Positions 680 to 30,442 of a DNA stretch of 64,000 nucleotides are shown here, piece after piece. Source of the stretch: Conexibacter sp. S30A1 (lineage in GTDB: Bacteria > Actinomycetota > Thermoleophilia > Solirubrobacterales > Solirubrobacteraceae); assembly GCF_023330665.1 (NCBI RefSeq), contig NZ_CP097127.1:2170001-2234000 (forward strand), in the 5' to 3' direction. The notes below the pieces were generated by a model. The model was not told where the DNA came from and searched no databases. It saw only the letters and a program-made list of their open reading frames with translations. Position numbers and translations under genes: made by a program. Positions within the stretch are counted from its first letter, which is position 1; each line of letters begins with the position of its first letter.

Positions 680-1035
680 TTCTCCTCGCGGTTTGCCTGC
701 TCGCTGACACCCTGCCCGGTCAGCGCCGCTACAAACACGCTGAAGGCGGCGCGGTCACGCTCCGGGTGAAACGGAGCGTTTCCATCTCTCAGCATCGCGG
801 ACACCCTTTCCAGGTCATAAAGCAGGGCGAGCTTGCCCGGCGGATCATCCCACTCGCCGCTGTCATAGCGCGCCACCCACGCGGCCAGTGCCGCCAGGGC
901 CTCGACCTGTAGCGGACTCTCCCACCAGCGGGTGCGCACCGGCAGCAGGTAGCGCTCGCGCAGCCTACAGACATCGAGCCACAGGTCCTCAAACCACTCG
1001 CGGCAGAGCGCAGGGTCCTCGAGCGGCGGCCTCAT
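676..1035 (-). CDS. Hypothetical protein, 119 aa, in the conjugation operon
   Basis: I do not recognise this protein. It is 119 aa, acidic and aromatic, with a WFEDLWLDVCRLRERYLLP segment near residues 14-32 and an alanine-rich helix around 43-56. No signal peptide or membrane segment is visible. Its start codon overlaps the stop of the coupling-protein gene (ATGA at 1032-1035) and its own stop overlaps the glutamate decarboxylase start in the same way, so translation of all three is probably coupled. A small cytoplasmic accessory protein of the transfer apparatus is the likeliest role from context, but nothing in the sequence proves it. Confidence 0.7.
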   Translation of the reverse strand: MRPPLEDPALCREWFEDLWLDVCRLRERYLLPVRTRWWESPLQVEALAALAAWVARYDSGEWDDPPGKLALLYDLERVSAMLRDGNAPFHPERDRAAFSVFVAALTGQGVSEQANREEK

Positions 1036-2591
1036 AGCCCGCCCGCCGCCCAGCCACGATCCGACCGACCGCCATCCTTGCGGCCGTCATCTGCCCGCCC
1101 GACCGCCAGCCGCCGCAGTCGGCGGTCATCAAACCAGGTGCGCAGCCGCACACGCACCGGCGCAAGGCGCCCGTAGAGCAGCAGCGCATGCCCCTCGGGC
1201 AGCTGGCGCAGCGCCTCGGGTGAGATCAGCGGTGCCCGCCTGTGGCCGTAGGAGCGGCTCGAGCCGTCACGGCCACTGGTGCGCGTCAGCTCGCGACGCT
1301 CCTCCTCGCCCGCCAGCCCCGAGAAGTAGCGCAGCGTCTCGAGGTCGGCCACTCCCGGCAACAGCATCCGCGCCCTGTGGCTGTTTACAACCGTCTCGGC
1401 CTGCTGGCGGTAGCGGCTGCGTGCCTGCGCCAGGTCGTGGAAGATCGAGATCAGCTGGATGTTGTGGCTGGGTGCGGTTGAGGCGATCTCCGCCAGGTTC
1501 GGCAGCGGTGCCACGTTGCCGGCCTCGTCCAGGCAGATCAACAGTGGCCGCTCGAGCCGCCCGCCGAGGCTGTTGGCAAGCTCGTAGGCGCCGTCGACGA
1601 TCTCCGAGAGCAGCACCAAAAAGATCGGCCGAAGCAGCTTTGAGGCCTTGGCGTCGCCGATCAGATAGAGCGTCGCGCACGAGCCGAGCAGCCGCTCGGC
1701 GGTTATCTCACAGCCCGCGGCCGAGCGCGCCACGCGCGTGAAGCGGTAGGCGCGCAGCAGCGTCTGCGCGGTCGCCTCGATCGATGTCCGCGTGCGGTCG
1801 GCCTGCGCCTCAAATGCCCTGACCGCCTCATAGGCCGCGCGCGTATCCGCGCGCTCGCGGCTGCCTGACGCGCGGGCCAGCAGGTCATCCAGCGCGCCGT
1901 CAAGCGCCCGTGTGCCCTGGCCGTAGGCCCAGGCTACGACCTGCTCGATCCCAGCGCCGGTGCGCGCCGCCACATACAGAAGCGGTGCCAGCCGCTGCTC
2001 GGCGGCGACCGCCCAGAAGTCGCCGCCCTCGACCCCACGCTGGTCAAGCTCGCCCGCCGCCGCAAGCCGCCAGGCAACCTCCAGGGCGCCGTCCCAGCTG
2101 GTCGCGCCGCGCAGCGGCGACCACGTCTGCCCCGGCACGCCGGCGAGCCCGAACGGGTCAAAGACATAGACCTCACCAAGCGCCTGGCGGCGTGCGAGCG
2201 TCGCGCCGAGCAGGTCGGTCTTGATCGATGAGGCGACCGCCGGCCCCTGCCACTCGAGCAGCGCCGGGATCGCAAGCCCCGCCGACTTGCCCGACTGCGG
2301 CGGCCCGAAGGCGACCAGCGCGTGGCGCTCCTCGGCGCGCAACAGCCGCCGTCCGCTGTAGCCGAGCGCCAGCCGGCCCGCTGGCCGGCTGGCGCCAGCG
2401 GCCTCCCGTTCGCCGCCTCGCCCCAGCGCATGCGACACCGTGCGCCCGTGGGCGTGCAGCGCGGCCAGGTCACGAGGCCTGGCCCAGCGTGCGCCGCGGT
2501 CAGAGTGACCGTCACCGGAGCGCTCGCCGGCCAGCGCGAAGAGCACCAGCGCGAGCAGCAGACCGGCCAGCGGCAGCGCCTCAGCGGCCAT
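1032..2591 (-). CDS. VirD4/TraG-family type IV coupling protein
   Basis: A 519-aa conjugative coupling ATPase that would link the DNA substrate to the secretion channel at the inner membrane. A hydrophobic helix at about residues 4-21 is the likely membrane anchor. Walker A is GPPQSGKS at 96-103; Walker B is LLICLDEAG at about 350-358, followed by the TraG/TraD-type block NVAPLPNLAEIASTAP and by HDLAQARSRY. The ATG start (2591) lies inside the VirB4-like gene, an 11-bp overlap, and the stop overlaps the next gene by 4 bp. Short N-terminal membrane regions are usual in actinobacterial coupling proteins. Function is firm at family level; the relaxase it would work with is not in the window. Confidence 0.9.
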   Translation of the reverse strand: MAAEALPLAGLLLALVLFALAGERSGDGHSDRGARWARPRDLAALHAHGRTVSHALGRGGEREAAGASRPAGRLALGYSGRRLLRAEERHALVAFGPPQSGKSAGLAIPALLEWQGPAVASSIKTDLLGATLARRQALGEVYVFDPFGLAGVPGQTWSPLRGATSWDGALEVAWRLAAAGELDQRGVEGGDFWAVAAEQRLAPLLYVAARTGAGIEQVVAWAYGQGTRALDGALDDLLARASGSRERADTRAAYEAVRAFEAQADRTRTSIEATAQTLLRAYRFTRVARSAAGCEITAERLLGSCATLYLIGDAKASKLLRPIFLVLLSEIVDGAYELANSLGGRLERPLLICLDEAGNVAPLPNLAEIASTAPSHNIQLISIFHDLAQARSRYRQQAETVVNSHRARMLLPGVADLETLRYFSGLAGEEERRELTRTSGRDGSSRSYGHRRAPLISPEALRQLPEGHALLLYGRLAPVRVRLRTWFDDRRLRRLAVGRADDGRKDGGRSDRGWAAGGL

Positions 2592-3819
2592 CGATCCGCA
2601 TCCCGCTGTCTGTGTCGGTCAGCCGCCGCTCGATCCTTGAGCGCTGGTGGGCCACGACGAAGGACCGCGCGCCGACCCGCCAGAGCGCCTGGCCGGGCGA
2701 AAGCTGGGTGAGCAGCTGCGCCTCCGTCCGCGTGAGCCCGAGCAGCTCGCGCGTGAGCTCGATCTGGCTCGCGTCCTGGTGATAGATGATCTTGGTCGAT
2801 GAGTCCGCGATCAGCCCTTCGGCGATCCGCGCCGCCCGCGAGCCGGAGTCGCCTGCCGCCTGCAGGTCGCCGAGCTTGTGCAGCACCACCAGGTTCATCA
2901 CGCCGAACTGCCGGGCGAGCTTGAAGTTGGACTGAAACCACTCCCCCAGGCCGCCGTGCTGGATGATCTTCCAGGACTCATCGGCGACGTTGATCAGCCG
3001 TGCGCGTCCGGGCCGCTCGGCGTCGCGGGCGAGCTGGGCGCTCATCCAGGCGCCGGCGCAGGCCATCAGAATCCCGACCGCGGGCGAGTCGCGCACGGCG
3101 TGCAGGTCGATCACAACAAGCCTCGCGTCCAGGTCGATGCCCGGCGAGGTCGGCCCGTCGAAGATCCCCGCAAGCGGCCCCTCACAGAGATCCTGCAGCG
3201 CCAGCGCCGCCCGCCGCGTCTCAGCGGCGAGTGCCGCGGGTGTGGTCTGCAGGCGCCCAGCCAGCTCGGCCGGCGGGTCAAAGAGCACCTCCGCGATCTG
3301 CGGGAGCGTCGGCTCGATCTCGCGGGCACGCACGGCGCGCAGTGCCTCGCGCAGTGCTGCGGCCTCGACCTGCTCGAGCGTCTGGCCGATCGCCGTCGTC
3401 GTGATCGCGCGCAAGAGCTCGGTCTGCGCGTGCTCCTCGGGCCGGGCGCTCAGCGGGTTCAGTCGCAGACCGCCGCCCGGTGATAGCGACAGCGGCCTCA
3501 CGCCGACGCTCTCACACAGCCGCCCGTACTCGCGCTTGACGTCGAGCACGAAGGCACGGCGCCCGAACAGGAGCATCCGCCACAAAAGCGTCTTGACCAG
3601 CGCGCTCTTGCCCTGGCCGAGCTTGCCGATCACGATCGCGTTGGGGTCATCCAGCGCACCGTCCTCGTAGAGCACCCAGGGGTCAAAGCAGAACGCGCCG
3701 CCATCGCTGTCACGGCCGATGTAGGCGCCGCGCCCGCCCAGACCACCGCCGGAGGTGAACGGGTAGAGCGCCTGCGCGTGGCGGGTGGTGACGCGGTGGG
3801 CGGGCGTCGCGGCGCTCAT
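2581..3819 (-). CDS. VirB4/TraC-like conjugation ATPase
   Basis: A 412-aa ATPase that resembles the C-terminal motor domain of VirB4/TraC proteins, which energise type IV secretion at the membrane. Walker A is GKLGQGKS at residues 65-72, followed by an ALVKTLLWRM helix and FVLDVKREYGRL. A Walker B-like segment (RLINVADESWK) lies near residue 265. It is much shorter than full-length VirB4 (about 600-800 aa), so the N-terminal domain may be supplied by the SCO6880-like protein encoded just upstream. It begins at ATG 3819, overlapping that gene's stop by 4 bp, and runs 11 bp into the coupling-protein gene. ATPase assignment is secure; the split-VirB4 idea is inference. Confidence 0.85.
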   Translation of the reverse strand: MSAATPAHRVTTRHAQALYPFTSGGGLGGRGAYIGRDSDGGAFCFDPWVLYEDGALDDPNAIVIGKLGQGKSALVKTLLWRMLLFGRRAFVLDVKREYGRLCESVGVRPLSLSPGGGLRLNPLSARPEEHAQTELLRAITTTAIGQTLEQVEAAALREALRAVRAREIEPTLPQIAEVLFDPPAELAGRLQTTPAALAAETRRAALALQDLCEGPLAGIFDGPTSPGIDLDARLVVIDLHAVRDSPAVGILMACAGAWMSAQLARDAERPGRARLINVADESWKIIQHGGLGEWFQSNFKLARQFGVMNLVVLHKLGDLQAAGDSGSRAARIAEGLIADSSTKIIYHQDASQIELTRELLGLTRTEAQLLTQLSPGQALWRVGARSFVVAHQRSRIERRLTDTDSGMRIDGR

Positions 3820-20032: not shown

Positions 20033-22069
20033 ATGAGCAATATGCTCGTTTACTCCCGGGACGGTCGGACCGCTGCGGCGCGGGTAATATGGTTTGTCAC
20101 AGCGACTAGAAGGCCGAGCCCACCAAGGGCCAAGCAGACAGCAATGAACTCCTCGCCCGCCCACGTCGCCCACCTCCCGCTCCGTCTAGAGGGGGCCCGG
20201 CGCCCGGCGGTCAGCGATACCAGATCGACAGCGCTACGGCGGTCGCGACACGTCGGCGAAGCGGCGCTCGCAATTCAGCTCGTGGCTCTGCTCGCGTGGA
20301 GCGGAGTGGAGGCTGCCAGACACGCGCAAACCGGAGACTTCTCGGGCTTCTACCAATGGTGGTACCTGATCTCGCATGGCACGCTCAACCCTCCAGGCCT
20401 GTTTCAGGCGCAGGCCATTCTGATCGAGTGGCCCCTGGCCGCCCTCGGATTCATCTGGCCGCACCCCATAACGCTGCTCGTGGTGCAGGACTTTGCGATC
20501 GTCGGTGCAGAGTTCGTCGCCTTTATGTGGCTATGCGACCTGGTCGCCGAGCGGCCCGAGGTTCCCGCAGCCCGCTTTTGCCTGACCGGTCTCGCGCTGC
20601 TCGTTCTGGACCCATGGATCTACTGGTCCGCATCTTGGGACTACCATTCCGAGCCGCTCGGAACCCTGTTCGCGGTACTTGCCGCGCGTGACCTGTTTCG
20701 AGGACGGCGCATCGCCGTGCTCTGGTGTGCCTTGACGCTGGCGAGCGGGCTCGTCACAACCCCATACCTGGTGGGAGTCGGCATTTCCATCCTGTTCGTG
20801 CGCGGCCGACGTGTGTGGGGGGCCGCTGCAATAGCTGCAGGGACCGCCTGGTTTGAGCTAATGCTCAAACTGGGAGTTGGCTTTGGGATCGCCGGAGCCG
20901 TGGGCAAGGGACACCAGGCGGCCGGGCTCCTAGCGAGCCGGGTACCGGCCGCCATTTCGGCGCTTCAGCACTTTTGGCTTGATGCCATCGCAAACCTCGC
21001 ACCGGCAGGCATCCTTGGCGCCGTGACAGCGCCCGCAATAGGCATAACCGCAGTTGTGATGGGCGAGAACTTCAGTCAGGGCATTGTCGGATACGTGCGC
21101 CCATCGTTTCAAGGTCTGCCGCTCTACATCTTTGTACCCATAGGCACCATTCTGGCGCTCATGTGGCTGCGGCGGCGGATATCTCGCCGCTTGGCAGACG
21201 CTCTGGTCGCACTGTCTATCGTAAACGTGCTCGGCTGGGCCGTACTTTGGATACCACAGGTGGTACCGACTTGGCTTCGGGTCAGCCCACGCCAGTCGGA
21301 GGCACTGACACACATCGAACAGATCATCCCCGAACGCGATGGTGTAGTCGCCTCGCAGGGCATCGCCGGAGACTTCGCCGGCCGCAAATACGAGAACTTA
21401 TTCGTGAGCACACCTGACTACTTCCGGCTCACCGCTCCTGACACGTGGTTTGTAATTGCACCTTACTCGGGCATCGAAACAGCGCTCGTTGCCCAATCGA
21501 CACAGGTGATCGCGACTCTCGCACGGGATCGTAACGCCAAGTTGGCGTACGTCAGCGATGACGTGTGGGCGTTCCGGGTGAAAGTCCCAGCGACTGGCAT
21601 CCATTATTTACCTGTTGGAGAACCAGCCAACAGCTATCCCGCCGGCTTGTTCGCAACCTACGGCACCGCCGTCCGTCGCGGGCCCGAGCGCTTTTGGTAC
21701 ATGAAGGGTTCAGACCGCGCGCATGGGCCGATCCTTTGGGGTGACTACTACTTGAAATCTGTGGGCCACTACCGCACCACCGTCCGCCTAGCGGGATCAG
21801 GCGAAGCCCAGGTGCAGCTGTGGAATGTCACGACGAATCGCGAACTCGCGGAAAAGAATGTGGCGCTCTCAGGTCGAGCCACCGTCAGCCTCGCCGGTTC
21901 GATCACGAGGCGTGATCCAAAACGCTCACAAGCGGCGCTTCGCGGTGGTGGCCCGTTCCAGATAAACCCCGTCCCAGCGTACCCGGGGAACAATCTGGAG
22001 ACGCGTGTCTACGCCGAGTCTGCGTCCACCATCAAGGTGCTGCACGTCTCACTGACTCCGGCCAAGTAG
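20033..22069 (+). CDS. DUF2079-family integral membrane protein
   Basis: A protein of up to 678 aa with about ten hydrophobic helices in its first two thirds and a soluble C-terminal third of beta-rich character. The YSASWDYHSEPL-like segment (WSASWDYHSEPLGTLFAVL), a long first extracytoplasmic loop (DFSGFYQWWYLISHG) and the SPRQSEALTHIEQIIPERDGVVASQG block after the helices are typical of DUF2079 proteins, thought to be GT-C-like. ATG 20144 is a possible later start; the first 37 residues look dispensable. A paralogue with the same layout, but broken, lies at 32165-33927. A role in polysaccharide or protein glycosylation is inference from location. Confidence 0.8.
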   Translation: MSNMLVYSRDGRTAAARVIWFVTATRRPSPPRAKQTAMNSSPAHVAHLPLRLEGARRPAVSDTRSTALRRSRHVGEAALAIQLVALLAWSGVEAARHAQTGDFSGFYQWWYLISHGTLNPPGLFQAQAILIEWPLAALGFIWPHPITLLVVQDFAIVGAEFVAFMWLCDLVAERPEVPAARFCLTGLALLVLDPWIYWSASWDYHSEPLGTLFAVLAARDLFRGRRIAVLWCALTLASGLVTTPYLVGVGISILFVRGRRVWGAAAIAAGTAWFELMLKLGVGFGIAGAVGKGHQAAGLLASRVPAAISALQHFWLDAIANLAPAGILGAVTAPAIGITAVVMGENFSQGIVGYVRPSFQGLPLYIFVPIGTILALMWLRRRISRRLADALVALSIVNVLGWAVLWIPQVVPTWLRVSPRQSEALTHIEQIIPERDGVVASQGIAGDFAGRKYENLFVSTPDYFRLTAPDTWFVIAPYSGIETALVAQSTQVIATLARDRNAKLAYVSDDVWAFRVKVPATGIHYLPVGEPANSYPAGLFATYGTAVRRGPERFWYMKGSDRAHGPILWGDYYLKSVGHYRTTVRLAGSGEAQVQLWNVTTNRELAEKNVALSGRATVSLAGSITRRDPKRSQAALRGGGPFQINPVPAYPGNNLETRVYAESASTIKVLHVSLTPAK

Positions 22070-22087
22070 CCGAGAAGCACTTCGCGC

Positions 22088-22090
22088 TTA
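22088..22090. repeat. Target duplication TTA, left side of IS5-family element
   Basis: TTA at 22088-22090 is repeated at 26324-26326, immediately outside the two terminal inverted repeats. A 3-bp TNA duplication is the habit of the ISL2-like subgroup of the IS5 family. Confidence 0.7.
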
Positions 22091-22174
22091 GGACCTATCC
22101 CGGTAGAGGGATTATGTGGACCGTCTCGAATTTCGTGATCGGCGTCTCTGTGGCAATGCGATCAGGAGGTTCCG

Positions 22175-23094
22175 ATGGGGCTCGTTGACCGTGATTATGG
22201 CTGGCGGCCTGATTGGCTGTGGCAGGGGATCGAGGTATCGCTTCCGCCGCGGCCCTCACGCCCGCGGGGCTGTCATAACCCAAGGGTGCCCGATCGCTCT
22301 GCGATGAACGCGATCTTGTTGGTCTTGCGGACCGGGATGCAGTGGAACGCGCTGGACGTGACCGGGGTCTGCTCGTCCTCCTCAGCACACCGTCGCTTCC
22401 AGGAATGGCGTGAAGCTGGAGTGTTTCAGGAGATCTGGCGTCAGGGGCTGCTGGAGTTGGATGAAACCGTCGGAATCGACTGGTCGTTCCTGGCGGTCAA
22501 CGGCGCGATGACCAAGGCCCCGTTGGGCGGCCACAAGACCGGTCCGAACCCCACAGACCGCGGTAAAAAAGGGTCAAGCGCTCCGTCGTCACCGACGCCG
22601 CTGGTGTCCCTCTCGGGATAGCTGTCGAGGGCGCGAGACGCAACGATCACCTGCTGTTGGCAGCGCCCCTGCAGTCAGCGCCGGTCGCCCGGCCGATCCC
22701 CACCGAGCCAGCACCCCAAGGGTTGTGCTTGGACAAAGGCTATGACTACTCGACCATCAGACCGTCGGTGACCTCGCAACGGTTCATCCCGCACATCCGC
22801 ACCCGTGGGGAGGAGATCGAGGAGAAGACCCAGAACCCGGACTGGAGAGCCCGCCGCTGGGTTGTTGAGGCCTGTCACTCCTGGCTGAGCCGCAACCGGG
22901 CCATCCTGATCCGCTGGTCAAAGAAGGACGAGAGCCACGAGGCGCTCCTCCAGCTCGCCAGCGGCCTCATCGCGCTCAAACGCGCTCACGCCTGGCGGCT
23001 CGCTAACCCGAAGTTCCCCCCGGTGACGCGGCGAAATCTGGCTTATTTGCTGGGATCGTCAGGGTTTTGGGGTGTCGGGGTTGTGTCTACTTGA
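22175..23094 (+). CDS. IS5-family transposase in two frames (probable programmed -1 frameshift; 3' end disrupted)
   Basis: ORF A (22175-22621) has the family N-terminus (WLWQGIEVSLPPRPSRPRG, MNAILLVLRTGMQWNAL, FQEWREAGVFQEIW) and the first catalytic aspartate in VGIDWSFLAVNGA. ORF B continues one frame back with RSVVTDAAGVPLGIAV, LCLDKGYDYS (second Asp) and RRWVVEACHSWLSRNRAIL (catalytic Glu). The frames overlap at AAAAAAG (22565-22571), the standard slippery heptamer for -1 frameshifting, so an A-B fusion would be made by slippage. Start ATG 22175 follows AGGAGG by six bases. The last codons before 23094 are probably derived from the IS1634 insertion, so the protein end is altered. Confidence 0.8.
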
Positions 23095-24366
23095 TCACGA
23101 CTGGGGCGTTCGTGGTGAGCTTGAGCGCTTGGGCTTGGAGTGCTGTGGGCTGGGTCAGCTTCTCGAACGTGTCGGTCCGGCCGGCGAGTCGGGTGCGGTT
23201 CCGGGTCTGGGTCGCCAGTTCGCTGAGCAGCGTCTGGTAGCTGTGAGCAGTGCTGCCGTCGGTCGTCTGTTTCGTCCGGGCCTTGGTCTCAGCTTCGGGT
23301 GAGCGGACGGCTTTGGCGACCGGGTCGTCGTTCTCGGGGCGGTTCTCGTCGGTGAACAGCAGTGGTTTCCATGCGGCCTTCAAATGCCAGGTGAGGTAGT
23401 AAGCGAGCATGCAGATGAACACGTGGGACCGGACCCGGTTCTCGAGGTGGTGATGGATCGGCCGGATCTGTAGGTCCGGGCCTTTCAGGGACCGGAACGC
23501 TCGCTCGGCCTGCTCAAGGTTCTTGTAGGTGCGGACGACATCTCCGGCTGGAACCTCAGCGGCGGTGTGGTTGGTGCGCAGGATGTAGAACCCGTCGAGG
23601 GCGGCCTCCGTGTCGATCTGCTCCTGTTTGCGCTGGTAGGTGAACTCCATGTCGCTTATGTGGATGTCGAAGTGTTTCTTGACGTGGAAGCGCTTCAGGG
23701 CCGGCCCGACGGCCAGGCCGATCTGCGCTGAGCCGAGCAAAGTGCCTTTGTCCACCCGGGTCTTGATCGCCGCCAGTTCCTGCTCTGTCGCGTCCAGCAA
23801 CAGGGTGCGTTTGCGGGCGCGCTGAGCACCAACAAGTGGGTTGCGGCACACGATCAAACGCTCCCCAGGGAACTCGTTGACGTCGGTAATCTCGCCGAGG
23901 TTCTGCTCATCAAACAGCGACGGCTGGAAGATGCCGTCGCGGACGAGTTTCTTGATCGTGGGGGCCTTCAGCGCAGTGATCCAGGAGACCCCCTCCGTGC
24001 GGGTGAGGGTCTCGATGTTCGCTTTGGTGACCATCCCGCGATCAGTCACAACAGTGACACGCGCCAGCCCGAAGCGGTCCTTGACCTTCCTGACCTGTGC
24101 GGGGAGGGTCTTGTCGTCATGGGTCTCGCCGGAGAACACCTCGATGCTGACGGGCCGGCCGTGCTTGTCACAGAGCAACCCGTAGACGATCTGGGGCAGG
24201 TTCTTCTGTCCGTCCCGCGAGTAGCCGAGCTTCCCCAAAGGACAGGCACGGCCCTCGAAATAGGAGGAGGACACGTCATAGAGCACCATCTCCCCAACGT
24301 TGAGGTGACGCTTGGCGAGACGGTCCTCGATCCGGGCCTGGCGCTCGTAAAGCCAGTCCATCGCGG
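23087..24366 (-). pseudogene. IS1634-family transposase, 3' (C-terminal) part, split by ISL3 insertion
   Basis: About 425 residues of an IS1634-type DDE transposase: MVLYDVSSSYFEGRACPLG with the first catalytic Asp, LGYSRDGQKNLPQIVYGLL, VTDRGMVTKANIE with the second Asp, and EQAERAFRSLKGPDLQIRPI with the Glu region. It lacks its first ~150 residues, which lie at 25717-26171 beyond the inserted ISL3 element. Removing that element and one 8-bp duplication restores an unbroken frame (DEDDLY joined to AAMDWLYERQ) that matches the intact copy at 26451 (ELLSAMDWLLERQ). The disruption is thus a clean insertion, with no other damage seen. Confidence 0.85.
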
Positions 24367-24374
24367 CGTAAAGA
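24367..24374. repeat. Target duplication CGTAAAGA, left side of ISL3-family element
   Basis: CGTAAAGA at 24367-24374 recurs at 25709-25716, directly outside both ends of the ISL3-family element. Eight bases is the usual duplication length for ISL3. Confidence 0.85.
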
Positions 24375-25708
24375 GGCTCCTCGCTGGTTTTCGTGGGTAG
24401 CGTCGGCTGAAGTTTGGTTTCCTGGACGGCTTGTGATCCTCGATGATGGGAGTCTGTGATGCAAGCCCAGGACCTTCTGCTGTTTCAGGCTGCGCTGGGG
24501 TTGAGCGCCCCGTGGCAGGTCACCAGTGTTGAGTTCGACCGGGACGCCCGGCGGCTGGATCTGCGGGTTGATTTCCTAAAGGGCGCGACGTTCTCATGTC
24601 CGGAGTGCGGCGTGTCTGGGTTGAAGGCCTACGACACCTCGGAGAAGTGCTGGCGGCACATGGACTTTTGGCAGCACCAGACTTATCTGACGGCGAGGGT
24701 GCCGCGCGTTCGCTGCGCCGAGCATGGGGTGCGCCAGGTGGCGTTGCCGTGGGCCAGGCCGCAGTCGGGGTTCACGCTGCTGTTCGAGGCGCTGATCATG
24801 GCGATGGTCGCTGAGATGCCGGTCGCGACGCTCGCGGCCTTGGTCGGGGAGCACGACACGCGTGTGTGGCGAGTCGTGCACCACTACGTCGATGTCGCGG
24901 TCGACTCCCAGGATCTGGCGGGGCTTGAGCGGGTCGGTGTTGATGAGACCTCAAGCCGGCGTGGGCATGACTACGTGACGGTGTTCGCCGATCTGGATCA
25001 GCGCCGTGGCGTGTTCGTGGTCGAGGGCAAGGATCATGAGACTGTGCAGGCGTTCTCGCTGTTTCTACAGACCCATGGCGGTGATGTCGGCCAGGTCAGC
25101 GAGGTCTGCCAGGACATGTCTGAGGCGTTCTTGAAAGGGACGCGTGAGAACCTCCCCGAGGCGCAGATCACCTTTGATCGATACCACGTCCGCTCCCATC
25201 TCTCCAAGGCTGTGGATGAGGTTCGTCGCCAGGAGTCAAAGCACCACAAGGACCTGCTGCGCAATACCCGGTACATGTGGCTCAAACGGCCGGCGAACTT
25301 GACCGACCGTCAGCGTGATCTGCTAGACGAGCTGCTCGCCCAGCCGCTTGAGACGGTGCGCGCCTACACCCTCGCTCAGCAGTTCGACAGCTTCTATGAG
25401 ATCGCTGACCCGGACACCGCACAGGAGTACCTGCGGCGCTGGATCATCGAGGTCGACGCAAGCGGCCTTGAGCCAGGCAAACGGTTCGCAAGGATGCTCG
25501 AGGATCACTGGGATGGGGTGATCCGCTGGCATCACAGCCAGATCAGCAACGGGCTGCTCGAAGGGCTCAACAGCCTCATCCAGGCAGCGAAACGCCGCGC
25601 CCGCGGCTACCGCTCAAACCGCAACTTCATCACGATGATCTACCTCATCGCAGGCAAACTCAACGCCGGGCCCGTCATCGCGTAACCCACCCCAATCAGC
25701 GAGGAGCC
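24375..25708 (+). mobile_element. ISL3-family insertion sequence, complete
   Basis: A 1334-bp element. The left end begins GGCTCCTCGCTG (24375-24386) and the right end is CAGCGAGGAGCC (25697-25708), a perfect 12-bp terminal repeat with weaker similarity further in (both continue to a GTGGGT). It is flanked by the 8-bp duplication CGTAAAGA. It sits inside the IS1634-family transposase gene. One gene fills it. It appears intact and recent, since both repeats and the duplication are unchanged. Confidence 0.92.
24456..25685 (+). CDS. ISL3-family transposase
   Basis: A 409-aa transposase of normal ISL3 length. An N-terminal zinc-finger-like pattern (FSCPECGVSGLKAYDTSEK, then VRCAEHG) is followed by a helix-turn-helix region and the DDE core: RVGVDETSSRRGHDYVTVFAD (first Asp), VCQDMSEAFLKG (second Asp) and a C-terminal segment with ISNGLLEGLNSLIQAAKRRA holding the Glu. 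It starts at GTG 24456 or ATG 24459; the second is the simpler choice. The gene is intact and fills the element, so it could be active. Confidence 0.93.
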   Translation: MMQAQDLLLFQAALGLSAPWQVTSVEFDRDARRLDLRVDFLKGATFSCPECGVSGLKAYDTSEKCWRHMDFWQHQTYLTARVPRVRCAEHGVRQVALPWARPQSGFTLLFEALIMAMVAEMPVATLAALVGEHDTRVWRVVHHYVDVAVDSQDLAGLERVGVDETSSRRGHDYVTVFADLDQRRGVFVVEGKDHETVQAFSLFLQTHGGDVGQVSEVCQDMSEAFLKGTRENLPEAQITFDRYHVRSHLSKAVDEVRRQESKHHKDLLRNTRYMWLKRPANLTDRQRDLLDELLAQPLETVRAYTLAQQFDSFYEIADPDTAQEYLRRWIIEVDASGLEPGKRFARMLEDHWDGVIRWHHSQISNGLLEGLNSLIQAAKRRARGYRSNRNFITMIYLIAGKLNAGPVIA

Positions 25709-25716
25709 CGTAAAGA
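25709..25716. repeat. Target duplication CGTAAAGA, right side of ISL3-family element
   Basis: Right-hand copy of the 8-bp duplication at 24367-24374. Deleting one copy together with the element rejoins the transposase reading frame exactly. Confidence 0.85.
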
Positions 25717-26171
25717 TCGTCCTCATCAACACCTTCGACCCCGAGCTCTGACGCCAGCGTCGACTGCCCCAACGAGCGCACGGTCGACAGCTTCGATCCC
25801 GGACAGATCACCCGCGAGACGATCATCGCCATGCACAGATCCCGATCACGCGAGGACCGCGGGTCCAGCAGCTCCGCCAGCCCCAGCCGCCGCGCCATGA
25901 TCAGCGCGGCGTTCACATGCCCCGCGGGCAAGGACCGCTCGATCTCAAACGCGTCATCGGCGCTCATCAGGCTCTCGCCCGCCAGCACCCGCCGGATCGC
26001 GTCGATCGCCTCGGCCGGGAGGTGCGAGAGGTTCGCGAGCGTTTCCTTCTTGACCTTCCCGTCCTCACGATAGGACCGGCGCAGCAGCGTCGCGGTGTAC
26101 TCCTTCTCACCACGACGAATCCTGTTCGTGACCACATGCATCGCACCGATGTGACGTGTCTTCGCTGGCAT
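25717..26171 (-). pseudogene. IS1634-family transposase, 5' (N-terminal) part, split by ISL3 insertion
   Basis: The first ~150 residues of the disrupted IS1634-type transposase, starting MPAKTRHIGAMHVVTNRIRR at 26171 and including LRRSYREDGKVKKETLANLS, IERSLPAGHVNAALI and SRVICPGSKLSTVRSLGQST. All of these have close counterparts in the intact copy at 26451. The frame then runs into ISL3 sequence at 25716. In-frame start alternatives exist at 26189 and at the internal Met near residue 11. The outer boundary of this IS copy lies between about 26200 and 26300 and was not resolved. Confidence 0.8.
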
Positions 26172-26328
26172 GCCTGGACTATATCGCACCCACCGGACGG
26201 ATGTTGTGACTACACTGTTGCCCGTAGAAAAGGCCGCTATCCCCGACGAACACAGGGAATGCGGCCGTTTTCAAGCGTGACTACCGAAGGAACTTCGGGC
26301 TAACCCTCTACCGGGATAGGTCCTTAGA

Positions 26329-28285
26329 CGGAAGTTTTCGTAGGTTCTGAGCCGGATTGCCTGTCGTTGCGGGCGGTCCGGCTTCTTTGGGCTGGCGGTT
26401 GTAGCCAAGGAATGGTTGACCGTAGCGGGATTTGCCGGTAATCTCTGCTTATGCCGAGGCGGTCTGAGGGAGCGATTCATGTAGCCAGGATCAAGTCCAG
26501 GTACAAGGATCGGGAGTATGAGTCCCACATCTTGCGGCGCTCCTATCGCGAGGATGGGAAGGTCAAGCACGAGAATCTCGGGAACGTCTCGCACCTTCCG
26601 CCTGCCGCGCTTGAGGCGCTGCGTCGCGCGTTGGCTGGGGAGACGCTCGTCTCGGCAGAGGATCGCTTCTGTGTTGAGCGCTCGCTGCCGCACGGGCATG
26701 TCCAGGCGGTGCTGGGCACGTTGCGTTCACTTGATCTGGAACGGCTCTTGTCACGCGAGCGCTGTCGGGAGCGGGACTTGTGTGTGGCGATGATCTGTCA
26801 GCGGCTGATCGCTGCAGGGTCGAAGCTGTCAGTCACCCGGCTGGTCTCCCAAACGACGCTTGCCTCAGAGCTTGAGCTCGGGACAGTCAGCGAGGCTGAG
26901 CTGCTCTCGGCGATGGATTGGCTGCTGGAGCGCCAGGACCGCGTGGAGCGGACCCTCGCGCGCCGGCACCTGAGCCACGCGCACGGCAGTGACATGGACG
27001 GCTTTGTGCTCTATGACCTGTCATCAAGCTATCTGGAGGGCCGCCACTGTGAGCTCGGGGCGATCGGGTACTCACGCGACGGGGTGCGCGGCAAGCATCA
27101 GATCGTCTACGGGCTCTGCTGCTCACCCGAAGGCCGGCCGGTGTCAGTGCGAGTATTTGAGGGCAACACCGCTGACCCCGCAACGCTCCAAGACGCCGCT
27201 GAGCGGGTCAAGGACACCTTCGGGGTCAAGCACGTCGTGTTCGTCGGCGATCGCGGGATGATCACTCACGCGCGGACGGTCGAGCTCAAGCAGCTCGGGG
27301 TCGGGTTCCTGTCCTCCCTGCGCGCACCGCAGATCCAGAAACTGACTGTGGCGCCCGGCTATCAGCTCTCGCTGCTGGATGAGACCGGCCTGTGTGAGAT
27401 CGAGAGCCCGGAGTTTCCCGGCGAACGGCTGATCGTGTGCCGCAACCCCGCCGTCGCGGCCGAACGTGCCCGCAAACGCCAGGCGCTGCTTGAGGGCACC
27501 GAGACCGAACTTGCGAAGGTCAAGAACATGGTGCAGAACCCCCGCGGCCGACTGCATGGCGCAGAAGCGGGAAAGATCGGTGAACGTGCCGGACGGATCA
27601 TCAACCAGAAGAAGATGGCCAAGCACTTCACCCTCACCATCACCGACGGCCAGTTCGCCTACCAACGCAACCAGGCACAGATCGACGAGGAGGCCGCGCT
27701 TGACGGGATCTACGTGATCCGCACCGACCAACCCGCCCAACGGCTCGGCGCCAGCGCCGCAGTCCGCGCCTACAAGCAACTCAAAGTCAACGAACGATCG
27801 TTCAAACAGATGAAACACACGCTCGAGATCCGCCCGGTCCACCACCGCCTCGCAGAACGCGTTCGTGCGCACGTGTTCCTCTGCATGCTCGCCCGTCACG
27901 TCCAGTTCGAACTCGAGCAGCGCCTCGCCCCGATGCTGTTCACCGACCCCGCCCCGCACAGCCCAACGGACCCGACCCGCCCTGCTGAGCGCTCACGCTC
28001 CGCGACCCACAAAGCCAGCCGTGCCGGACAGCCCAGCCCCAGCGAGCATCCCGCCCACACGCTCGCTGATCTGCTCTCAAACCTCGCCACGATCTGTGAG
28101 AACACGATCCGGATCGGTGACACCAACACGAGGATCGTCAAGCACACCGAACCGACCAGCCTGCAAGCCAAAGCGCTCGAACTGCTCGGCCTCACCACCA
28201 ACAAGTAGCCAAGCAAAACCCCGCCCGGAACCGCGCGCGCCCAGCGATTCCAGGCGTTTTCACGCCCTGGAACCGAAAACTTCCG
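26329..28285 (+). mobile_element. IS1634-family insertion sequence, complete second copy
   Basis: A 1957-bp element. The left end CGGAAGTTTTCG (26329-26340) and the right end CGAAAACTTCCG (28274-28285) are perfect inverted repeats, and a 6-bp duplication CTTAGA flanks it (26323-26328 and 28286-28291). The left target copy uses the last base of the IS5-family element and its TTA duplication, so this copy landed exactly on that element's edge, after it. It is related to, but clearly diverged from, the split copy inside the IS5 element, so the two arrived independently. Its right end is 12 bp from the stop codon of the GT-C gene. Confidence 0.9.
26451..28208 (+). CDS. IS1634-family transposase, intact
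   Basis: A 585-aa DDE transposase of normal IS1634 length. N-terminal ARIKSRYKDREYESHILRRS and SYREDGKVKHENLGNVSHLP, then SAMDWLLERQDRVERTLARR, the catalytic blocks VLYDLSSSYLEGRHCELG (Asp) and VFVGDRGMITHARTVELKQL (Asp), and a C-terminal VNERSFKQMKHTLEIRPVHH with the Glu region. It ends in a Ser/Pro-rich segment and LQAKALELLGL. It is 122 bp from the left end and 77 bp from the right end of its element. ATG 26451 is the start. Confidence 0.93.
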   Translation: MPRRSEGAIHVARIKSRYKDREYESHILRRSYREDGKVKHENLGNVSHLPPAALEALRRALAGETLVSAEDRFCVERSLPHGHVQAVLGTLRSLDLERLLSRERCRERDLCVAMICQRLIAAGSKLSVTRLVSQTTLASELELGTVSEAELLSAMDWLLERQDRVERTLARRHLSHAHGSDMDGFVLYDLSSSYLEGRHCELGAIGYSRDGVRGKHQIVYGLCCSPEGRPVSVRVFEGNTADPATLQDAAERVKDTFGVKHVVFVGDRGMITHARTVELKQLGVGFLSSLRAPQIQKLTVAPGYQLSLLDETGLCEIESPEFPGERLIVCRNPAVAAERARKRQALLEGTETELAKVKNMVQNPRGRLHGAEAGKIGERAGRIINQKKMAKHFTLTITDGQFAYQRNQAQIDEEAALDGIYVIRTDQPAQRLGASAAVRAYKQLKVNERSFKQMKHTLEIRPVHHRLAERVRAHVFLCMLARHVQFELEQRLAPMLFTDPAPHSPTDPTRPAERSRSATHKASRAGQPSPSEHPAHTLADLLSNLATICENTIRIGDTNTRIVKHTEPTSLQAKALELLGLTTNK

Positions 28286-28297
28286 CTTAGAGCTCCG

Positions 28298-30442
28298 CTA
28301 CTTCTTGAACCTGATATCCAGCGGCCCCGTGGTCCCGTAGACGTAGTCAGCGCCCTTGTCCACAAGGTGACCGGCGAAGGTATCAGGCACACCACCGGGC
28401 GTGACCCCGACGATGTAGAAGGTCGCGACGCCGTGGGAGTTGGTGTAGGAGACGATGTTTGACTTGCCGGGCACGCCGTCATTCTTGGTGCCGGGGGCGC
28501 CGAAGATCTCAGCGGTCCCCTTTCGCACGCCGCGGCTCAAATAGCGCAGCTGGCTGAGGTAGACGCCCACGCCCGCCCTGTTGACCGCATTGTCAAAGTG
28601 ATCAAGGATGTCCACCTGCAGCTTCAGGCGCTTGCCGACGGGCTCCGCGGCGTTGAAGGCCTGCGGGATGAACGCGGTACGCCAGAGGTTCATCAGGAAG
28701 CGGTGGCTGACGCTGACCGTGCCCGGGCCGGCGGTGAACGCCAGCACGGAGAAGCCGTCGCCCAGGCCGACCTCTCCCTGGACGTTCGGGGCCTGGATCT
28801 CCACGGTCGCGTGCTGGTGGGGCGCCAGCGTCTTGGGTCCGCTCCAGCGATCCCAGAAGGTGGTGTCGCCATGGTCGGTCTGGATCGTGTAGTAGGGGGT
28901 GAGCGGGCGGCCGGTCTCGTTTCGCACGTTCAGGACCAGCGCCCTGATCCCGGCGAGATAACCGGTCGTGCGGATCCCGACGATCTTGACGTAGAGCGGC
29001 GAGGCAACCAGCAGCGCATAGGCGAACACGATCGCCACCACCGCCGTGCAGGCACCCGTGATCCAGGCCCAGCGGATGTCGCGCAGCACCCCCCACACGC
29101 GGCCGGGGATCGCGGTCAGCGCCCGCACCTCCGGCGCGACGCTGACCGCCGCGAGCAGCGTCGGCGGCACCAGTGAGACCAGGTAGTTGGTCTGCGAACG
29201 CGCCGCGACGAAGTAGGCGAGTGCCGCCAGCAGGAAGGTGGCCGGTCGCAGCAGCGGGTAGGTGCCCACGAAAATCACCACCAGGAGAAGCGCCACCATC
29301 ACCAGCGCCACGCTGTAGATGGTCAGCGAGCCGCCGCCCAGGTGGGCAAACAGCGTCAGCGAGATGAGCCCCTGGCCGGAGGGCACGAGGTTGCTCACAA
29401 GCGGCGTGAAGACCCCCTTGAACCAGGCGCCGGGCGACATGATCAGCCACGGCAGGTTCGGGACAAGGAAGGCGACCAGCACGATCCGCAGGTAGCGCCA
29501 GGCCCGCTGCAGTGCTGCGCGCAAATCCCGGTTGCGGTCGTACTCGTCCATGCCGAGCGCGAGCAGCACGAAGCCGAGCACCGGCCAGGGTGTCTGTTTG
29601 ATCCCCATCGCGCAGGCCAGCGCCACCGGCCCGATCCAGGAGCGCCAGCCGCGCACCCGCCCGAAGCGATCCCACTTGTAGGCGGCGATCATCAGCAGCG
29701 GGATGTAGAGCATGTCGGTGACGTCACCGACGGCAAACGCCAGGTAGACGTCGATGCTCGAGAGCAGCAGCGCCACGGCACGCAGCTCGCGCGGCAGCAG
29801 CACAAACAGCAGAAGCACCGTCGCGACCCAGCCAACGACGTCAAGCGCCGAGCCGAGCTCCGTGTACCAGCCAAACAGCATGAACGGCACGTAGAGCAAA
29901 AACGACAGCGAGGGGTAGGACAGCGACTTGATCGGGTGGCCGGTGATCGTGTACGAGTAGGCGTCCGGCGAGAGGCGGTAGAGCGGCGGCGCCCCCGCCA
30001 TCGAGTGCGTGTAGGGGTTCAGCCCGTGGACGACCAGCTGCGCCGCATATTGGTCAAAGGAGAGCTCGTCGGTGGAGTACGCGGGGTTGCCGTGAAACTG
30101 GAGGTAGGTCCAGATTCCGATCAGCAGCACGATCAGCAGCGCGTTGGCCCAGGCAAACCAGTTCTCATAGCGCCGCAGCCCTCGGATCGAGCGCAGGTCC
30201 AGCAGGCTGATGATGATCACGCACAGCCCCCAGAAGCCGACCAGCACGTCCACGAGCGCGATCGGCGAGAAGTACGACGCCGGGCCATACAGCGTCGTTG
30301 ACCAGTTGAGGATCACCACCCCCACCAGCGCCCACAGGATCCGTTCGCCCCACGGCTTCGGCGGACGCACCGGCGCCCTCAGCGGCTCCAGCTGGAGCTC
30401 GGGAGGCGACTGTTGTTTTGCTTGAACTATCAGGGAGATCAC
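28298..30442 (-). CDS. GT-C-fold membrane glycosyltransferase with C-terminal extracytoplasmic domain
   Basis: A 714-aa protein with about eleven to twelve hydrophobic helices in residues 35-500 and a soluble beta-rich tail of some 200 residues. The first large loop contains YSTDELSFDQYAAQLVVHGL and NPYTHSM, where the acidic pair resembles the catalytic site of GT-C/GT87-type sugar transferases that use lipid-linked donors. MGIKQTPWPVLGFVLLALGMDE is another conserved-looking block. The tail looks Ig-like (GVATFYIVGVTPGG) and would face outside. GTG 30442 is the start. The IS1634 element sits 12 bp past its stop codon, so the gene is intact but has lost whatever followed. Substrate unknown. 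Confidence 0.75.
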   Translation of the reverse strand: MISLIVQAKQQSPPELQLEPLRAPVRPPKPWGERILWALVGVVILNWSTTLYGPASYFSPIALVDVLVGFWGLCVIIISLLDLRSIRGLRRYENWFAWANALLIVLLIGIWTYLQFHGNPAYSTDELSFDQYAAQLVVHGLNPYTHSMAGAPPLYRLSPDAYSYTITGHPIKSLSYPSLSFLLYVPFMLFGWYTELGSALDVVGWVATVLLLFVLLPRELRAVALLLSSIDVYLAFAVGDVTDMLYIPLLMIAAYKWDRFGRVRGWRSWIGPVALACAMGIKQTPWPVLGFVLLALGMDEYDRNRDLRAALQRAWRYLRIVLVAFLVPNLPWLIMSPGAWFKGVFTPLVSNLVPSGQGLISLTLFAHLGGGSLTIYSVALVMVALLLVVIFVGTYPLLRPATFLLAALAYFVAARSQTNYLVSLVPPTLLAAVSVAPEVRALTAIPGRVWGVLRDIRWAWITGACTAVVAIVFAYALLVASPLYVKIVGIRTTGYLAGIRALVLNVRNETGRPLTPYYTIQTDHGDTTFWDRWSGPKTLAPHQHATVEIQAPNVQGEVGLGDGFSVLAFTAGPGTVSVSHRFLMNLWRTAFIPQAFNAAEPVGKRLKLQVDILDHFDNAVNRAGVGVYLSQLRYLSRGVRKGTAEIFGAPGTKNDGVPGKSNIVSYTNSHGVATFYIVGVTPGGVPDTFAGHLVDKGADYVYGTTGPLDIRFKK

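Follow-up and report, generated by a model that had tools for sequence, protein, structure and literature searches.

The window analysed here is a 64-kb stretch of DNA with 67.6% G+C, corresponding to positions 2170001-2234000 of a host genome that is assembled as a single contig of 3,458,291 bases (G000:C1). At positions 22088-28291 of the window lies a stack of four insertion sequences, approximately 6.2 kb in total: an IS5-family element contains a first IS1634-family element (IS1634a), which in turn contains an ISL3-family element, and a second IS1634-family element (IS1634b) adjoins the right edge of the IS5 element. A first-pass annotation of the same DNA had described these four elements, their outer coordinates and three target duplications (TTA, CGTAAAGA and CTTAGA), and all of these are found exactly as described.

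With all elements removed, two convergent genes are left about 30 bp apart, with stops at 22069 and 28298, so that the elements occupy the gap between the gene ends and break no gene. Neither flanking gene (20033-22069 and 28298-30442) has a Pfam or NCBIfam match. The right gene is 92% identical in the same-genus genome G024 and is present in 9 of the 61 genomes searched, host included. G024 carries homologues of the left flank (51% protein identity, tblastn) and the right flank (87.8% DNA identity over 3779 bases) with two other frames between them, showing that the content of the gap varies. No empty site was seen among relatives; the nearest locus (L053) has the two other frames and L054 ends at a contig edge. 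The polysaccharide genes that the first-pass annotation placed ahead of the stack are found at about 8.2-19.3 kb of the window and include sugar-nucleotide epimerases, glycosyltransferases and a flippase-type protein. Near them, on the minus strand at 1032-3819, are conjugative coupling-protein and TraG-like P-loop domains, a segment that may belong to an integrated conjugative element.

The four elements and their junctions

The IS5-family element is IS427-like and runs on the plus strand from 22091 to 26323, with a length of 936 bp once its insert is discounted. It is bounded by perfect 20-bp terminal repeats (22091-22110 and 26304-26323), the 17-bp core of which occurs twice in the window and in none of 100 shuffles, and is flanked by TTA target duplications at 22088-22090 and 26324-26326. 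Its transposase is encoded on the plus strand in two frames, the first at 22175-22621 (DUF4096) and the second, carrying the DDE domain, at 22657-23094. The last codons of the second frame now extend into IS1634a, and only these last few were altered by that insertion. The transposase matches both PF13340 and PF13586 above the gathering score, while against NF033580 the halves of the split frame score 98.2 and 71.5 bits, each below the cut-off of 110 bits. Judging from the three-frame translation, the two frames would be joined by a −1 shift at six consecutive A (22565-22570, plus strand). DNA and model searches of the host genome found no second copy of the element, empty or filled, and the 27 other genomes of the genus that we searched yielded only diverged relatives with at most 76% protein identity.

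IS1634a lies on the minus strand at 23008-26298, is 1949 bp long without its insert and has the ends CCGAAGTTCC. Its 6-bp target duplications, GCTAAC, are at 23002-23007 and 26299-26304, and the right one shares its last C with the right IS5 end, whose innermost base this C forms. The transposase gene is split into a C-terminal piece at 23087-24361, which scores 278.4 bits against NF033559 (cut-off 100), and an N-terminal piece at 25614-26189 that extends into ISL3, both on the minus strand. Two complete, ISL3-free copies are present in the host genome near 2131990-2133940 and 2530700-2532650, flanked by their own duplications TCTAGC and CCTAGG; their edges and duplications fix the ends of the window copy and confirm its reading frame. 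The first-pass annotation had anticipated a duplication of 5-6 bp for IS1634a, as is found, but had placed the ends near 23060 and 26290, misplacing the left one by about 50 bases and the right one by 8, and the intact copies rule these positions out. A 4-bp CTAA duplication with an 11-bp end was also considered, and the 6-bp reading was preferred because differently flanked copies share their ends only from CCGAAGTTCC onward.

When ISL3 and one of its target duplicates are taken out, IS1634a returns to the 1949-bp length of both intact copies, with one open frame, bearing out the earlier claim that the frame is restored exactly. The transposase is 586 aa from the ATG in the intact copies, and the window copy has GTG at that codon. 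Relative to the two intact copies, the window copy has 24 and 31 differences in 1949 positions; the 24 that separate it from both comprise 15 silent changes, 8 in five changed codons and 1 in the start codon. By this make-up, most of the differences arose before function was lost, and we rejected the decay of IS1634a as a means of dating the entry of ISL3. The two intact copies (L019 and L020) are themselves identical but for 7 substitutions in one 24-bp stretch, element positions 949-972, and 8 positions of the window copy within 210-234 match neither. Clustered changes of this sort resemble the outcome of short gene conversion or of a consensus error.

The ISL3-family element (24375-25708, plus strand, 1334 bp) sits between 8-bp duplications of CGTAAAGA at 24367-24374 and 25709-25716. 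Its transposase frame is intact (24456-25685, plus strand) and scores 336.6 bits against NF033550, where the cut-off is 180. The host genome holds one full-length relative, 81% identical.

IS1634b (26329-28285, plus strand, 1957 bp, ends CGGAAGTTTTC) is flanked by CTTAGA at 26323-26328 and 28286-28291, the first base of the left duplicate being the last base of the IS5 element. It encodes an intact transposase of 585 aa (26451-28208, plus strand) that scores 305.6 bits against NF033559, again with a cut-off of 100. Relatives in the host genome are L021, with 4 differences in 1957, and L022, at 84%. A search with this transposase against genome contigs returned 15 loci, one of them 93% identical over 210 residues in an Actinomycetes MAG and the others 41-48% identical.

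Order of the insertions

We replayed the insertions as a string test over 22000-28400, placing ISL3 into IS1634a at CGTAAAGA, IS1634a into IS5 at GCTAAC, and then IS5 and IS1634b into the rejoined flanks. With each insertion made at its computed target, the string obtained matches the window at every letter. Given that IS1634a lies inside IS5 and ISL3 inside IS1634a, the IS5 element predates the entry of IS1634a, and IS1634a predates the entry of ISL3. This part of the order proposed in the first-pass annotation is upheld by both the nesting and the replay; the further claim, that IS1634b came after IS5, is not.

The sequence of the empty site is ...GCG C TTA GA GCT.... If IS5 arrived first, its right edge would read C-TTA-GA, a word subsequently duplicated by IS1634b at the last base of IS5. 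If IS1634b arrived first, the CTTAGA of the empty site would be duplicated and IS5 would then enter the left duplicate at its TTA. Either history gives the observed sequence exactly, whereas two control histories fail. The outcomes are identical because the base before TTA and the last base of IS5 are both C. Thus, although the IS5-first order reproduces the sequence and accounts for the first base of CTTAGA as coming from the IS5 end, the reverse order yields the same letters, the junction carries no order information, and we give the IS5-first order an even chance. More generally, when the target of an abutting insertion overlaps the duplication of another element and the adjacent bases match, the junction cannot tell which of the two came first.

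The age that nesting gives to an insertion is relative to the element it entered and not to arrival at the chromosomal site. Since both 20-bp IS5 ends are intact, with TTA flanking the entire nest, all of it, up to 4.2 kb, could have arrived in a single move, IS5 being already loaded with IS1634a, with or without ISL3, and the small effect of IS1634a on the IS5 transposase would be compatible with such a move. Set against this are the lack of any second IS5 copy in the host genome, the finding of only diverged relatives in the 27 other genomes and the greater simplicity of insertion in place, and we consider a pre-loaded arrival unlikely.

Target words and the probable cause of the pile-up

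Eight IS1634 copies in the host genome exceed the model cut-off, and their duplications are GCTAAC, CTTAGA, TCTAGC, CCTAGG, GCTATC, GCTAGC, GCTAGT and CCTAGC. All eight 6-bp targets contain a YTA core and seven contain YTAR, the exception being GCTATC (binomial P = 4.5e-20 for YTAR, treating the copies as independent and taking the YTAR frequency from this one window). Such words are scarce in the window, where YTAR occurs 82 times compared with approximately 420 expected from base composition, and CTAG occurs 40 times compared with approximately 98 expected from a Markov estimate. The rejoined IS5 element and its close flanks contain three YTAR words, at the left edge, at the inner GCTAAC and at the right edge, and the IS1634 elements occupy the last two.

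End-finding covered 21 IS1634-family loci, 6 in the host genome and 15 elsewhere. Outside the host, a credible pair of ends with a duplication was found at 4 of the 15 loci, with ACTAAT and ATTAAG fitting YTAR and GCGAGT (L087) and TCACG (L088, a distant relative at 32% identity) departing from it. The other 11 loci gave no credible ends, a weak ACTAA pair at L073 not being counted. The YTA-core rule is thus strong in the host genome and only partly seen outside it. Among IS5 relatives in the genus, matching duplications were found at C-TAA-G (L126) and T-TA-A (L125), and two (L131 and L134) of the five IS5-family loci with two recognisable ends, the window counted, had no matching duplication.

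Two further observations concern IS1634-like sequences elsewhere in the host genome. At L109 (G000:C1:2268101-2272738), an IS1634-family element of a third type occupies CCTAGC, a word that fits the target preference. Another transposase gene is present on either side of it, in two inverted copies; its flanks make up an inverted repeat of at least approximately 90 bp, and both sides show the same protein start. Separately, more than 10 places, all with the same score and below the cut-off, carry a transposase-like frame of approximately 506 aa with only weak similarity to the IS1634 model; another element is therefore much more numerous in this genome.

Taken together, these results point very probably to a stack of independent and ordinary insertions, with target preference and site tolerance as the likely causes of the pile-up in place of a special hot spot. 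IS1634a would have entered IS5 next to the right terminal repeat, at gCTAAc, the sole YTAR word inside the element; ISL3 would later have entered IS1634a, splitting the transposase; and IS1634b would have used the CTTAGA word at the right edge of IS5, a word present in the empty site too. A gap between convergent genes would cost nothing to occupy, and both IS5 and IS1634 seem to choose short YTA-core words that are rare in this G+C-rich DNA. An IS5 insertion at C-TTA-G leaves YTA-core words at both edges, so that IS1634 copies would tend to land in or beside IS5. We propose, tentatively, that in this lineage IS5 and IS1634 may share a YTAR word otherwise lacking in the chromosome, each IS5 planting IS1634 targets at its own edges. 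If this holds, chains and nests of IS5 and IS1634 would be an expected product of target chemistry and not a mark of hot spots. Target words alone do not fully explain the nearness of the two IS1634 copies.

The first-pass annotation had instead called the site clearly an insertion hot spot just behind the polysaccharide genes. Four elements within 6.2 kb, the position of those genes and the variable gap content at L053 would suit this reading, which we judge distinctly improbable: no more than two of the four insertions were into the chromosomal site, the other two lying within earlier insertions; both IS1634 sites follow the YTAR preference and with it the YTA-core rule general to the host genome; and the variability of the gap is known from a single relative in which the two flanking homologues share a contig. 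Finally, while every layer is a repeat of the kind that breaks assemblies, chance and assembly error are very unlikely sources of the stack, since each layer carries an exact duplication of its own and can be re-inserted with every letter matching, the host genome was assembled as one contig, and the 24 and 31 differences from the other two copies mean that the window IS1634a is not a collapsed copy.

Relation to known systems

Nested insertion sequences are common, and the stack is ordinary biology involving three standard families; its value is as a well-resolved case, a clean worked example of nesting in which all junctions are resolved. The ISL3 element shows no notable departure from its family, with a model score over the cut-off, a length of 1334 bp and the 8-bp duplication that is the family norm.

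The IS1634 family was formerly called IS1549. In the passages of PMC2266710 on this family, its members are described as 1500-2000 bp long with 5-6 bp duplications of AT-rich tracts, while IS1634 and IS1549 themselves have long, variable duplications. A 6-bp duplication is given for ISPfe2 of Paracoccus in the relevant passage of PMC3281130 and for ISGka5 of Geobacillus in that of PMC8024623. Both IS1634a and IS1634b (1949 and 1957 bp, GCTAAC and CTTAGA) lie within the family ranges, and their ends, CCGAAGTT and CGGAAGTT, fit the end consensus C-----YT in the table of PMC2266710. They resemble ISPfe2 and ISGka5 in having a transposase over the model cut-off, a length of 1.9-2.0 kb, a single long frame and 6-bp duplications. 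In contrast to the AT-rich tracts in those family descriptions, the duplications here share a YTA core and are mostly CTAG-like, and the long, variable duplications that PMC2266710 gives for IS1634 and IS1549 themselves were not seen here. We found no description of a YTAR or CTAG target for IS1634 in the literature searched, which is no proof of absence. The target word is a small refinement over the known families, and finding element ends in G+C-rich genomes would be easier with a YTA-core rule for this IS1634 clade.

The IS5-family element resembles the IS427 group, for which the corresponding part of PMC3281130 gives short 2-4 bp duplications and a frameshift motif: it is approximately 0.9 kb long, has a short duplication and has two frames around an A run, which a −1 shift would join. 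What sets it apart from that group are a 3-bp TTA duplication, its status as a single copy in the genome and the 3.3 kb of other elements inside it. An insertion at the terminal repeat of another element, where the target word lies, also has precedents in IS231A, which inserts in the ends of Tn4430 since its target word is found there, and in further elements that insert at the ends of others. The arrangement of IS1634 and IS5 in this window is similar, but the word here is just 4-6 bp long and is used elsewhere on the chromosome too.
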